Below are positions 2,384 through 42,664 of a stretch of DNA of 64,000 bases, one piece after another; the first letter of the stretch is position 1; each line of letters opens with the position of its first letter. Made by a program: the position numbers and the translations under genes. Below the pieces are notes generated by a model that searched no databases, was not told the origin of the DNA, and was given only the letters and a program-made list of their open reading frames with translations. This DNA is from an uncultured Acetatifactor sp. (GTDB lineage Bacteria; Bacillota; Clostridia; Lachnospirales; Lachnospiraceae), in assembly GCA_944384205.1 (NCBI GenBank), contig CALWSL010000001.1, positions 248,001-312,000 on the forward strand, read 5' to 3'.

Positions 2384-3460
2384 CTATTCCAAATCCTCCC
2401 AAAATTCTTCCAATGTTATGCCCTTCTGCGTAATCACGGCAGCCGCCTCCAAGCCCACATATCTGAAATGCCATGGTTCATATTCGATTCCCGTAATATA
2501 TTCCTTGCCTTTCGGATAACGCAGAATAAATCCGAACCGGTAACTGTTTTCCACAAGCCAGATTCCCGCCTCCGTCTCTCCAAAGCCTTCATCCAGACAG
2601 GTATATTCATCCGACACAATATCCAGCGCCAGTCCGATCTGATGTTCGCTTGCTCCCGGCACCGTAACCGCCTGACTTGCCAGTTGATGCGCCTCCACAA
2701 AATTCATGCCCTGCTGCATATAGCGGGTGATTTTTCGGTTAAAAAGCATCTCCTGACGCTCCGTATCACGATAAGGAGAACAAATAACCAGATTGATTTC
2801 ATCCTCCTTTGCCGCTTGCAGCATATTGCGAAGATCGTCAATAATTCTTTCATCACAGCGCATGGTGCTGGTAATATTGCCAAGCTCAAAGCTATAATCC
2901 TCAGGAATGGAATGCTGCTTATTGATTAATACCAGCCGCCAGTCATCTTTGGAAAACTCATATGTATTTTCTGGATTTTTAACCGGGGTATCCGTTTCCT
3001 GCGTTCCGGCAGACTTCGGCTTTCTGTTCTCCGTGGACTTTAAAATATCCTCCGCCTTATATTTTCCTACGATGTCCAAGCCATGAGATATCTCGTCGTA
3101 CTCATAATCGTTTAAAACATCCCTGTCGTCCAATATCTCAACATCTTCTATATTCGGTTCTTCCTCCTCAGCCAATGAGACCTGATTCAGCATTTCCTCA
3201 TTCACAGACATTTCGCCGGAATCTTTTGGAGCCGTAATAAAAACCGGAAAGGAAAAACTGCTGTACACAACATAAAGCACCAAAGTCATCGACAGCATGA
3301 AAAAACGCTTGCCGTTTCGTTTACAGTAAGAAATCATGCAAAAAAGAAACACCCACAAGGACAGGATGGGCAAAATCAGGATACTGCATATTTTATTTTT
3401 CTTTCCAATTTTCAGCAAATCCAATCTGACACGTTCTTCTATTGATTTATTCATTTGCAT
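2384..3460 (-). CDS. Membrane-anchored D-Ala-D-Ala carboxypeptidase, VanY-like (M15B)
   Basis: Predicted peptidoglycan-trimming metallopeptidase removing the terminal D-Ala. The 358-residue protein has a hydrophobic N-terminal stretch with two membrane segments (about 24-45 and 52-72), an acidic low-complexity linker, then the catalytic domain. Zinc-site motifs are SEHQIGLALDIV (SxHxxGxAxD) and EPWHFRYVG, with SPYRDTERQEMLF upstream, as in VanY/DacY enzymes. The start ATG has AAAGG about five bases upstream; a second ATG lies two codons later. It is the first gene of a vanY-tgt-yajC unit, divergent from aroC. Nothing suggests glycopeptide resistance: no vanRS/HAX neighbours are present. Confidence 0.88.
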   Translation of the reverse strand: MQMNKSIEERVRLDLLKIGKKNKICSILILPILSLWVFLFCMISYCKRNGKRFFMLSMTLVLYVVYSSFSFPVFITAPKDSGEMSVNEEMLNQVSLAEEEEPNIEDVEILDDRDVLNDYEYDEISHGLDIVGKYKAEDILKSTENRKPKSAGTQETDTPVKNPENTYEFSKDDWRLVLINKQHSIPEDYSFELGNITSTMRCDERIIDDLRNMLQAAKEDEINLVICSPYRDTERQEMLFNRKITRYMQQGMNFVEAHQLASQAVTVPGASEHQIGLALDIVSDEYTCLDEGFGETEAGIWLVENSYRFGFILRYPKGKEYITGIEYEPWHFRYVGLEAAAVITQKGITLEEFWEDLE

Positions 3461-3535
3461 ATCAGCCTTTTATCTAGCATTTTAGCTAATAATATCATAT
3501 ATTTTCTGCATGCGCATCATTTTTCTGCAAAAAAG

Positions 3536-3564
3536 TTGCTATTTGCCAAACAATTCGTTATAAT
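3536..3564 (+). promoter_or_regulatory. Promoter of aroC leader transcript
   Basis: -35 TTGCTA (3536-3541), exactly 17 bases, then a perfect -10 TATAAT (3559-3564). The predicted transcript start near 3571 is just left of the long hairpin, so the hairpin and repeats would be transcribed as an approximately 280-nt 5' leader. Confidence 0.75.
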
Positions 3565-3577
3565 GTGAACATTCAGA

Positions 3578-3652
3578 GCCAAGCAGATTTCCGGAAACAG
3601 AAGCGATGAATGCTTGCATTCAGAAGCGCCTGTTTCTGGAAATCTATTTGGC
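3578..3652 (+). repeat. Long near-perfect inverted repeat in aroC leader
   Basis: Left arm 3578-3600 (GCCAAGCAGATTTCC then GGAAACAG) is the reverse complement of 3630-3652 except at three positions. Two of these are G-U wobbles in RNA, so 22 of 23 positions can pair. Inside lie a short GCG/CGC pairing and a perfect TGAATGC-TT-GCATTCA hairpin. The outermost TTGGC can alternatively pair with the adjacent GCCAAA at 3656-3661. Confidence 0.85.
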
Positions 3653-3665
3653 GAAGCCAAACAAC
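3646..3665 (+). repeat. Direct repeat copy 1 containing TTTGGCgaaGCCAAA hairpin
   Basis: The 20-mer at 3646-3665 recurs exactly at 3814-3833, flanking the tandem array. Each copy contains a 6-bp stem TTTGGC/GCCAAA with a GAA loop. Confidence 0.85.
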
Positions 3666-3692
3666 GAGGAAATCCGCAGGATTTTCGAGTTT

Positions 3693-3805
3693 GGCTCTGA
3701 ATGGAGCCATAAGGGCTCTGAATGGAGCCATAAGGGCTCTGAATGGAGCCATAAGGGCTCTGAATGGAGCCATAGGGCTCTGAATGGAGTCATAGGGCTC
3801 TGAAT
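3693..3805 (+). repeat. Six tandem 20-21 bp units (GGCTCTGAATGGAGCC core)
   Basis: Units begin at 3693, 3714, 3735, 3756, 3776 and 3796. The first three are exactly 21 bp apart and the later ones 20 bp. Each complete unit carries GGCTC-TGAATG-GAGCC, a 5-bp stem with a 6-base loop. The fifth unit has one base change (GGAGTC) and the sixth is partial. The regular hairpin phasing, rather than a conserved reading frame, is what is kept. Confidence 0.9.
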
Positions 3806-3813
3806 ACAGAGAC

Positions 3814-3833
3814 ATTTGGCGAAGCCAAACAAC
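3814..3833 (+). repeat. Direct repeat copy 2 containing TTTGGCgaaGCCAAA hairpin
   Basis: Exact second copy of the 20-mer at 3646-3665. It ends four bases before the aroC ribosome-binding site (GGAGG at 3837-3841), so folding here could affect aroC translation. Confidence 0.85.
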
Positions 3834-3848
3834 ACTGGAGGTATCATA

Positions 3849-4952
3849 ATGGCAGGCTCATCATTCGGAACCATTTTTAAAATAACTACCTGGGGGGAAT
3901 CCCACGGCAAAGCGCTGGGCGTCGTCATTGACGGCTGTCCCGCGGGGCTTGAACTGTCTGAATCGGATATTCAGACCTATCTTGACAGGAGAAAACCGGG
4001 AACAAGCTCTATCACCACTCCCAGGAAAGAGGCTGATGAAGTGGAAATCCTATCCGGCGTCTTTGAAGGGCGTACCACAGGCGCTCCCATTTCCCTTATC
4101 GTCCGCAACACCTCGCAGATATCTAAGGATTACAGCGAAATTGCATCCTACTACCGCCCCGGTCATGCGGATTATACTTTTGATGCGAAATACGGCTTCC
4201 GGGATTATCGCGGCGGCGGACGCTCTTCGGGACGGGAAACCATCGGACGCGTGGCAGCCGGATCCATCGCCTGTAAAATATTAAAGGAAATGGGGATTGC
4301 GGTATGCGCCTATACCCGTTCTCTCGGTCCCATTGAAGCTGACTGTTCCCGTCCTGACAAAAAAATAATCCTGTCCACAAAAACGGCAATGCCGGACCTT
4401 GCGGCTGATGCAAAAGCGGTTGCTTATCTTGAGGAAGCCAAAAAGCGTTTTGATTCCGTGGGCGGCTCCATGGAATGTCTGATTACAGGTGTCCCCGCCG
4501 GAATCGGCGACCCCGTATTTGAAAAGCTGAACGCCAACCTTGCAAAAGCAGTCATGTCCATCGGCGCAGTCAAGGCGGTGGAAATCGGCGACGGAATGCA
4601 GGTATCCCAAAAATGCGGAAGTGAAAACAATGACGCTTTCCGCATGAAGAACGGAAAAGTGGTAAAAGAAACCAACCATGCAGGCGGTATCCTCGGCGGC
4701 ATGAGTGACGGCGATACGATTCTCGTAAGAGCACATGTAAAGCCCACTCCTTCTATTTACCGCACCCAGCAGACCGTAAACCGTGACGGCGAAGAAATCG
4801 ACGTGGCAATCAAGGGACGCCACGACCCTGTGATTGTTCCCAGGGCAGTCGTGGTTCTGGAATGTATGACTGCACTCACCGTTTTAGATGCCATGATGAT
4901 TAATATGTCCGCCAGACTGGATTCCCTGAAGGATTTTTACAACCAAAAATAA
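3849..4952 (+). CDS. aroC: Chorismate synthase
   Basis: Makes chorismate from EPSP, the last step of the shikimate pathway (reduced-FMN dependent). The 367-residue protein begins MAGSSFGTIFKITTWGESHG, the hallmark N-terminus. Further signatures are GCPAGLELSE, RRKPGTSSITTPRKE, the RDYRGGGRSSGRETIGRVAAG segment and the HDPVIVPRAVVVLE C-terminal motif. The ATG at 3849 sits 7 bases after GGAGG; an in-frame ATG at 3816 would place the ribosome site inside the coding region and adds non-family residues. It is a lone plus-strand gene behind an elaborate leader and ends in a strong bidirectional terminator. No other aro gene is adjacent. Confidence 0.97.
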   Translation: MAGSSFGTIFKITTWGESHGKALGVVIDGCPAGLELSESDIQTYLDRRKPGTSSITTPRKEADEVEILSGVFEGRTTGAPISLIVRNTSQISKDYSEIASYYRPGHADYTFDAKYGFRDYRGGGRSSGRETIGRVAAGSIACKILKEMGIAVCAYTRSLGPIEADCSRPDKKIILSTKTAMPDLAADAKAVAYLEEAKKRFDSVGGSMECLITGVPAGIGDPVFEKLNANLAKAVMSIGAVKAVEIGDGMQVSQKCGSENNDAFRMKNGKVVKETNHAGGILGGMSDGDTILVRAHVKPTPSIYRTQQTVNRDGEEIDVAIKGRHDPVIVPRAVVVLECMTALTVLDAMMINMSARLDSLKDFYNQK

Positions 4953-6232: not shown

Positions 6233-6547
6233 TTACTTTTCTTCACATCCGCAGGTCTCGCCGCGTCCGGAAAAATCCTGCCATGGAGCCGTTCTCATGG
6301 AATCGTCAAAACGGTCAAAGCATCTGCTTTCTCTTCTCTCTTCGCGCCGTTCCTCGCGTCTGTCCTCGCATCTGTTTTCGCGTCTCTCTTCACGACATTC
6401 CTCACGTCTCTCGCATCGTTCTTCTCTCCGCTCTCTTCTGCAGCCATTATCCTCTTTGTCCTCTCTGCATCCGCAGGAGTCATTGCCACAAGCTCCATTA
6501 GAATTTCCGCAGCAACACAGTAAAAGTAATATAATAAGCCAATTCAT
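6233..6547 (-). CDS. Small Cys-capped, Arg/Glu-rich protein of unknown function
   Basis: I do not recognise a characterised family. The 104-residue product begins with a hydrophobic segment MNWLIILLLLCCCGNSNG (membrane anchor or signal, with a Cys triplet that could be lipidated or oxidised). A Cys-rich patch (CGNDSCGC) comes next, then about 55 residues of low-complexity R-E-E-R-R-C repeats, and a non-repetitive tail ending CGCEEK. A gene is supported by the ribosome site GAGGT eight bases before ATG and by a strong terminator right after the stop. The repeated CGT/GAG codons look like slippage-prone DNA. Its length may vary between strains. Confidence 0.7.
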   Translation of the reverse strand: MNWLIILLLLCCCGNSNGACGNDSCGCREDKEDNGCRRERREERCERREECREERRENRCEDRREERREERRESRCFDRFDDSMRTAPWQDFSGRGETCGCEEK

Positions 6548-42454: not shown

Positions 42455-42664
42455 CAGACTATTTGCCACTTAAGTATTCGTCAATTCCCTTTGCTGCCGC
42501 TTTTCCCGCGCCTCACGCAAGCCATGGGCGCAGACTATTTGCTACTTAAGTATTCATCAATTCCCTTTGCTGCCGCTTTTCCCGCGCCTCACGCAAGCCA
42601 TGGGCGCAGACTATTTGCCACTTAAGTATTCGTCAATTCCTTTCGCTGCCGCTTTCCCCGCGCC
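42455..42664 (-). repeat. Tandem triplication of the nfnB 3' end (76-bp period)
   Basis: Copies begin at 42455, 42531 and 42607 (exact 76-base steps); the third is the genuine end of nfnB, homologous to about 42664. On the minus strand each vestige still reads the GltA/NfnB tail (KAAAKGIDEYLSSK or SGK) ending in TAG. The two extra copies differ by a few bases from each other and from the gene. They also contain a GCGCC...GGCGC inverted pair at the junction. Because 76 is not a multiple of three, read-through would not be in frame. Confidence 0.95.

Follow-up and report, generated by a model that had tools for sequence, protein, structure and literature searches.

The chorismate synthase gene aroC in the 64-kb stretch of DNA analyzed here (the window) is preceded by a leader of about 280 nt, for which folding gives −125.2 kcal/mol (z of −9.3, with none of 200 shuffled sequences as good). 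The leader is composed of three pieces, namely a closed RNA module with stems P1 to P4, an array of 21-nt units, and a second copy of a 20-mer from the module just upstream of the ribosome binding site (Table 1).

Table 1. The aroC leader and its parts (positions in the window)
Feature	Position	Strand	Remarks
Promoter of aroC, sigma-70 type	3536..3564	+	TTGCTA-17-TATAAT; predicted start at ~3571, in the first bases of P1
Repeated unit: whole RNA module, P1-P2-P3-P4	3570..3703	+	R1 score of 132.2 bits (E 1.7e-32), this copy being among those used to train R1
P1 5' arm, inner part of a former transposon terminal inverted repeat	3570..3582	+	13 nt, 100% complementary to 3691-3703
P2, long hairpin	3585..3645	+	CUUG tetraloop at 3613-3616; sequence varies among copies, pairing preserved
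Alternative 75-nt hairpin (predicted)	3578..3652	+	P2 lengthened by GCCAA (3578-3582) with TTGGC (3648-3652)
P3, TTTGGC-gaa-GCCAAA	3647..3661	+	small hairpin TTTGGCgaaGCCAAA
P4 hairpin, GGAAATCC/GGATTTTC	3666..3688	+	arms 3668-3675/3679-3686
GA/GA internal motif under P4	3666-3667 and 3687-3688	+	GA..GA across copies, by eye
P1 3' arm	3691..3703	+	pairs with 3570-3582
Array of 5.5 copies, 21-nt unit	3693..3805	+	every unit repeats the P1 3' arm; by eye, each could form a small hairpin
Exact repeat of the P3 20-mer	3814..3833	+	first copy at 3646-3665
Ribosome binding site of aroC, GGAGG	3837..3841	+	read from sequence
aroC, chorismate synthase	3849..4952	+	PF01264, E 1.1e-138

The original prediction for this leader had named the promoter, a near-perfect hairpin of 75 nt (the alternative hairpin of Table 1), and an exact duplication of the 20-mer, and all three are present, with TTTGGCgaaGCCAAA inside each copy of the 20-mer. 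The promoter is the only promoter-like site within 3450-3900, where shuffled sequences give an expectation of 0.9. The second 20-mer does adjoin the ribosome binding site, ending 3 nt short of GGAGG. The perfect 13-bp stem that closes the module had been overlooked, as had the 21-nt array. A covariance model of the module, R1, was built on 13 copies. Scanned against the window, R1 found the aroC copy alone, apart from two weak signals, namely its trace on the opposite strand and a second match at 3760-3868 (15.3 bits, E of 0.04); the 20-mer at 3814-3833 is probably the remnant of a partial module duplication.

A protein-coding reading of 3606-3803 (65 aa with GSEWSHK repeats) was dropped because other copies, compared by eye, shift the frame, and a kink-turn at the GA/GA motif of P4, considered by eye, is also among the readings set aside. 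Elsewhere the window contains a tandem array of 2.8 copies of a 76-nt unit (42455-42664) and, on the minus strand at 6233-6547, an ORF of 104 aa rich in Cys, Arg, and Glu behind a hydrophobic start, without a Pfam match.

Dispersal and ends of the family

The module belongs to a dispersed family. A DNA search found matches in 8 of 61 genomes, all of the same genus and including the window's own genome, at unrelated places. With R1, 30 of the 41 genomes searched from this genus (GTDB Acetatifactor) have matches, at up to 62 per genome, and in the own genome there were nine at E ≤ 1. Across Lachnospiraceae, 72 of 150 genomes (71 of 149 genera) had matches, and class-wide 8 of 148 genomes, five of these eight being Lachnospiraceae. 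The copies precede unrelated genes. The original prediction had set a dispersed repeat against its own claim, and the same element is indeed found at unrelated loci. The loci used below are 100 regions chosen among the matches listed for genomes of the genus, together with earlier and own-genome loci; their 133 matches (106 + 27) were reduced to 124 copies, the 13 training copies included, by excluding nine weak second, antisense, or partial matches, one of them in the own genome (L130). Flanks are shared by few pairs among the 124 copies.

The copies kept from the set of 106 matches are 98 to 181 nt long, which leaves no room for a transposase. Both ends, GTAA..TTAC, are intact in 24 of the 124, and 13 of these 24 have duplications. 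The 8-mers flanking the GTAA..TTAC positions are identical at 7 to 8 places in 25 of the 124 copies, compared with 0.41 expected when flanks of different copies are paired. We call young the 23 copies that combine GTAACTATTCAG ends with a target duplication of 8 bp, and old the remaining 101, where old means only that no duplication is recognizable; two copies with a duplication of at least 7 of 8 and no GTAA-like ends (L011 and L172) were counted as old. The family thus has what characterizes miniature inverted-repeat elements: it is short and dispersed, and it has terminal inverted repeats and duplications. The window copy has lost its GTAA ends, and its duplication is not recognizable (2 of 8).

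A candidate mobilizer is present in the complete genome G006, which carries two copies (L295 and L296) of a 1.8-kb single-ORF element of the IS66 family with GTAACTATTCAG ends, a transposase of 485 aa (PF03050, E of 1.2e-42), and exact 8-bp duplications, ATTTTTAT and AAAAAAAC. Duplications of 8 bp are the rule in the IS66 family. Of 138 genomes of the genus, 5 encode transposases related to this pair at E ≤ 1e-40, and all six loci of these related transposases carry at least one GTAACTRTTCAG end (GTAACTATTCAG or GTAACTGTTCAG). In the six PF03050 loci of the first comparison, L295 and L296 are the only two with such ends on both sides. In the own genome, the sole IS66 transposase (L291) has a mere partial GTAAATATTCAG match, and a matching element was not seen; in the drafts G032 (the genome with 62 matches), G022, and G036, an IS66 transposase was not detected. 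Pairs of ends 1.3 and 6 kb apart in G006 were first guessed to bear a transposase, a guess not borne out by the 1.3-kb case, which by eye has no transposase-like ORF.

Because the IS66 element of G006 has the same ends and duplications, we infer that the family is a miniature transposon, probably mobilized in trans by IS66. It resembles IS66-family elements and their miniatures in its terminal GTAA repeats and in the PF03050 transposase with the same ends in G006, but its interior is an RNA fold with no sign of an IS remnant, as judged without formal alignment. The copy in the aroC leader appears to be old and no longer mobile, with ends that match those of the single-ORF IS66-family insertion sequence.

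Conserved fold, competing pairings, and strand

The interior of the copies is a conserved fold that covaries strongly. In 106 aligned matches, 84.8% of cells hold standard pairs, with 876 double changes, compared with at most 44.1% and 189 when the arms are slid; in 29 copies from outside the training set, one per genome, the values are 91.2% and 369, compared with at most 47.4% and 89, both alignments having been fitted to the structure of R1. P3 is paired in 60.8% (106 matches) and 73.8% (29 copies) of cells, and inner P4 in 54.9% (106 matches). Of 60 distinct 5' arms of P2, cut out of the alignment of 106 matches, 49 pair best with their own 3' arm; the mean duplex energy is −14.6 kcal/mol with own and −3.5 kcal/mol with foreign arms, and the median identity of the 5' arms to one another is 0.50 compared with 0.44 after shuffling. 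Judged from these alignments, the interior fold is maintained by selection or by a repair process. A site behind the same gene is shared by L213 (G030) and L225 (G007), with upstream flanks 82.8% identical; by eye, P2 is rewritten between the two yet nearly perfectly paired, and the rest of the module is almost unchanged, as if P2 hairpins at this site had been refreshed by template switching.

The original prediction had also claimed mutually exclusive pairings of the TTGGC at 3648-3652, and these hold in the folding model. For a transcript ending at 3690, 3578-3582 is predicted to pair with 3648-3652 at a probability of about 0.99, with P3 absent. Once 3691-3703 is added, an exchange is predicted in which this pairing falls to 0.01 and P1 and P3 reach 0.96 to 0.99 and 0.63 to 0.99 per pair; in the whole leader, P1 is predicted at 0.81 to 0.83, and array copies capture its 5' arm up to 0.15. 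Across copies, the cells of the alternative helix are paired in 85.4% (alignment A2) and 84.9% (A4), compared with at most 41.2% and 45.8% when slid, and double changes number 32 compared with up to 22 (A2) and 11 compared with up to 3 (A4), mostly in one or two columns; these alignments were fitted to the structure with the same columns, and the controls are mixed. An alignment-free check covering 53 of the 124 copies gave a modest excess, 32 complementary compared with 24.2 expected, and a loose strand-exchange test on truncated copies did not separate them clearly from the shuffled control (0.50 to 0.59 and 0.41). The competing pairings are predicted ones, which the column covariation across copies moderately supports.

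Several observations bear on the strand that matters. Mismatches in P1 and P2 favor G-U over A-C (124:45 in old and 26:13 in young copies); P4 of the old copies agrees (89 G-U and 46 A-C), and P3 of the old copies points in the opposite direction (17 and 51). The sense RNA is more stable than the antisense RNA in 91 of the 101 old and 21 of the 23 young copies, and likewise in 28 of the 29 family copies. Since the young copies share this property, part of the asymmetry is built into the element. With gene calls from a simple ORF script, old copies among tandem genes are co-directional in 49 cases and opposite in 15 (p of 2.4e-5), and young copies in 8 and 6, a sample (n = 14) of little power. 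By genome, the old copies divide as 10:7 in G006, 12:5 in G032, and 27:3 in the others, so that the lean is weak in the two best-sampled genomes; for the 29 family copies it is 13:6 and not significant (p of 0.17). The co-directional lean of the older copies hints that the RNA itself matters, although the bias could also reflect selection against antisense copies rather than a benefit of sense copies. Of the 101 old copies, 18 have a promoter-like site that ends 0 to 15 nt upstream of the module, compared with 3 at the mirrored position; the corresponding counts are 3 and 5 for young copies and 4 and 3 for the family set, and because of the latter the promoter placement is unreplicated.

Two species have a module just behind the −10 box of one and the same small gene, at an identical +1 position (L174 in G032 and L011 in G030); the product of this gene contains TEENRxILERI and has no Pfam match. 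Among 30 orthologous loci of this gene, a sense R1 match in the leader occurs in one, that of G032 itself (the G030 locus lies outside the 30); L264 has an antisense copy upstream, L263 has a match elsewhere, and the leader of the G083 ortholog, whose protein is 95% identical, is without a module. Tandem growth is confined almost entirely to the 3' side of the module. Its last 14 nt are repeated within 300 nt downstream in 18 of 124 copies, compared with 1 of 124 for its first 14 nt upstream. TRF arrays, with units of 18 to 124 nt, lie on the 3' side in 14 of 124 and on the 5' side in none of the 124 (4 and 0 of 29 in the family set); carriers of arrays at the 3' end include L123, L174, L009, L011, L225, L227, and L143.

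Relation to Clostridiales-1

Among described RNAs, the one nearest to the window copy is the Rfam family Clostridiales-1 (RF01699), with a score of 35.4 bits (E of 1.3e-6 to 2.9e-6) that lies under the gathering cut-off of 48 bits. It aligns over the full model (1-166 of 166), including P2 and the GCUUGC apex, though some pairs are non-standard and the 3' third fits poorly. The window has no gathering-level match, and the own genome has none at E ≤ 0.01 genome-wide. Among 20 sister loci, nine match at E ≤ 0.01 and 11 give no match; L153 (55.9), L156 (54.5), and L225 (48.8) exceed the cut-off, and with Rfam's own filters one of 11 loci, L153, passes. The two families have in common the closing stem, the long hairpin with the GCUUGC apex, and a second hairpin with UGAG...GCGAAU, whereas P3 and the tandem arrays of the window module are not evident in the Clostridiales-1 consensus shown. 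The canonical Clostridiales-1 copies have an extra hairpin, mostly TGATRCC..CATCA ends, and 5-bp duplications, unlike the GTAAC ends and 8-bp duplications of the window family. Best RF01699 matches number at least 83 in G006, at least 100 in G198, and 0 in the genome of the window (G000), and among the matches listed they lie, by eye, mostly elsewhere than R1 matches.

Apart from exceptions such as L342, the 19 canonical RF01699 copies that we read (L333-L348 among them) are near-identical to one another within G006 and likewise within G198. A 3' end is recognizable in 13 of the 19, one being L352 of G185. Flanks of 5 bp are identical in 9 of these 13, compared with 1.9% of mismatched pairs, and agree at four or more of five positions in 11 of 13, compared with 25.6%. 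Because of these flank repeats, the Clostridiales-1 family as described in Rfam itself looks like a transposable element. Rfam types it as 'Gene; sRNA', and the table of Weinberg et al. (2010, PMC2864571) gives it as probably RNA, 'cis-reg n', and not a switch; the words mobile and transposable are absent from the main text of that paper. In the literature, we found no functional study of Clostridiales-1 and nothing on structured RNA in Lachnospiraceae; on compensatory changes in bacterial MITEs, the one paper listed concerns IS605 stem loops in Borrelia. Among the titles listed, those for MITEs with Lachnospiraceae or IS66 included, none points to an earlier account of the mobility seen here, with subscription literature thinly covered. 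A MITE of Cardinium (PMC9769881), as far as its description was consulted, has no bearing on the element. We consider it very probable that the leader element began as a miniature transposon of the IS66 type with a Clostridiales-1-like RNA inside.

Explanations for the aroC leader

The original prediction had taken the leader for a cis-acting structured RNA of the attenuator or riboswitch kind, linked to aroC. What stands is the structured RNA, whose fold and, less firmly, alternative helix are kept across the family and whose pairings exclude one another; the link to aroC does not. The covariance search of relatives' aroC upstream regions did not find the module in their leaders. R1 had no match at any of 80 aroC loci of relatives with flanks of up to 2.5 kb, and a second set of 29 loci (flanks of up to 1.5 kb), partly from the same contigs as the first, had two matches, neither in a leader: one (L238) is located past aroC on its 3' side, and the other (L256), weak at 19.1 bits, is antisense and lies upstream of the promoter. 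The aroC matches in public contigs come from Acetatifactor, other Lachnospiraceae, and a few differently labeled bins, and the closest relative found is only 75% identical in its aroC DNA. By eye, eight relatives (L233, L234, L237, L248, L250, L252, L257, and L260) have a similar promoter at the same place and a leader of roughly 30 to 80 nt. On this comparison, the simplest reading is that the module was inserted at the start of a short aroC leader in this lineage, and among the loci examined it appears to occupy the aroC transcription start in no other lineage.

Conservation in leaders of the same gene, by which a riboswitch or attenuator would be recognized, was therefore not found, the leaders compared being those of aroC, and neither a terminator scan nor folding revealed an expression platform. 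No terminator-like site lies between the module and aroC, the sole sense-strand match of the scan (3619-3640; 0.6 expected by chance on both strands) being inside P2; in folding, GGAGG is unpaired at 0.47 to 0.77, so that the ribosome binding site is about half to three-quarters open and is not closed by the leader. The position of the module in a leader and the competing pairings, which are predicted to form during transcription and show some conservation, would fit an aroC-specific attenuator or riboswitch. However, the absence of the module from the examined aroC leaders of relatives, its occurrence before unrelated genes, and the lack of a terminator-like site or a closed ribosome site ahead of the gene led us to reject this explanation, and we regard it as highly improbable that aroC is controlled by such a switch or that the window copy is an aroC sensor. 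The leader RNA is probably not an aroC switch but an old copy of a transposon-borne fold.

We somewhat favor the explanation that the leader is an IS66-type miniature with a Clostridiales-1-related fold that has been kept as a co-transcribed element of mRNA stability or processing, and that resident copies, with about the same likelihood, act on the mRNA of which they are part. The aroC mRNA would carry the copy at its 5' end. In the nascent RNA, the extended P2 hairpin would form first, and when the P1 3' arm emerges, strand exchange may convert it in the cell to P1, P3, and P4, burying the 5' end in a helix; the extra P1 3' arms of the array would keep a partner at hand. Because a buried 5' end would slow 5'-end-dependent decay and the duplex would offer a double-stranded processing site, the copy might tune the amount or stability of aroC mRNA with no metabolite being sensed. 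Insertion itself would be random in orientation, and sense copies that are useful or harmless would be retained. The nearest functional precedent, in the parts of the sources consulted (PMC2229807 and PMC10969869), is provided by the ERIC elements of enterobacteria and the Correia/NEMIS elements of Neisseria, which are co-transcribed miniature transposons with stable hairpins and are reported to affect mRNA via RNase III or RNase E, orientation being of importance for ERIC. Likened by description, the window family differs from them in its strongly covarying stems, its branched module, and the tandem repetition of the module's 3' end in 18 of 124 copies.

A plain selfish miniature transposon without host function, whose fold serves transposition or harmlessness (for example, as DNA friendly to read-through), is a less probable but serious alternative, under which the strand bias would arise because antisense copies that cause termination or interference are lost. 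It is consistent with young, duplicated copies that have the same fold and no bias, with the few flanks held in common, and with a site turnover that looks high, as the leader of the small gene discussed above (the MTEE gene) is occupied in G032 and empty in its G083 ortholog. For an IS66-type transposase, the ends alone should be enough; nevertheless, there is strong covariation in the interior. The sustained pairing of P1 and P2 in old copies and the +1 site that two species share at L011 and L174 also speak against a purely selfish element. It is much less plausible that the leader is the source of a trans-acting sRNA cut out of it. In favor of this reading, a double-strand RNase could cleave P2, whose duplex is long and near-perfect, and an sRNA is the type given by Rfam, with 'cis-reg n' in the 2010 table (PMC2864571). 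However, the P2 sequences share little between copies, so that a common target is unlikely, and no terminator-like site was found downstream of the module.

Returning to a kept mRNA element, we tentatively extend it to a broader view, which we hold to be possible though doubtful. The Clostridiales-1-type core, comprising the CUUG hairpin, the GA-motif hairpin, and the strand exchange in which the 5' arms of P1 and P3 take part, might be a portable RNA device carried by two or more unrelated kinds of transposon (GTAAC ends with 8-bp and TGATRCC ends with 5-bp duplications). It would have been placed again and again at +1 sites and operon junctions, where it would cap the 5' end or act as a barrier to decay, while P2 would be renewed as a perfect palindrome and further P1 3' arms would be gained in tandem.

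An Rfam family listed in 2010 is hereby tied to transposons, and IS66 is named as a candidate mobilizer of the module found in the window. The module family also serves as a warning that covariation alone can mark mobile elements as riboswitch candidates. Its young insertions without visible strand bias, alongside older biased ones, amount to a natural experiment. If old copies do stabilize or process the mRNAs in which they reside, a family of gut bacteria would be spreading a ready-made 5'-UTR element by transposition.
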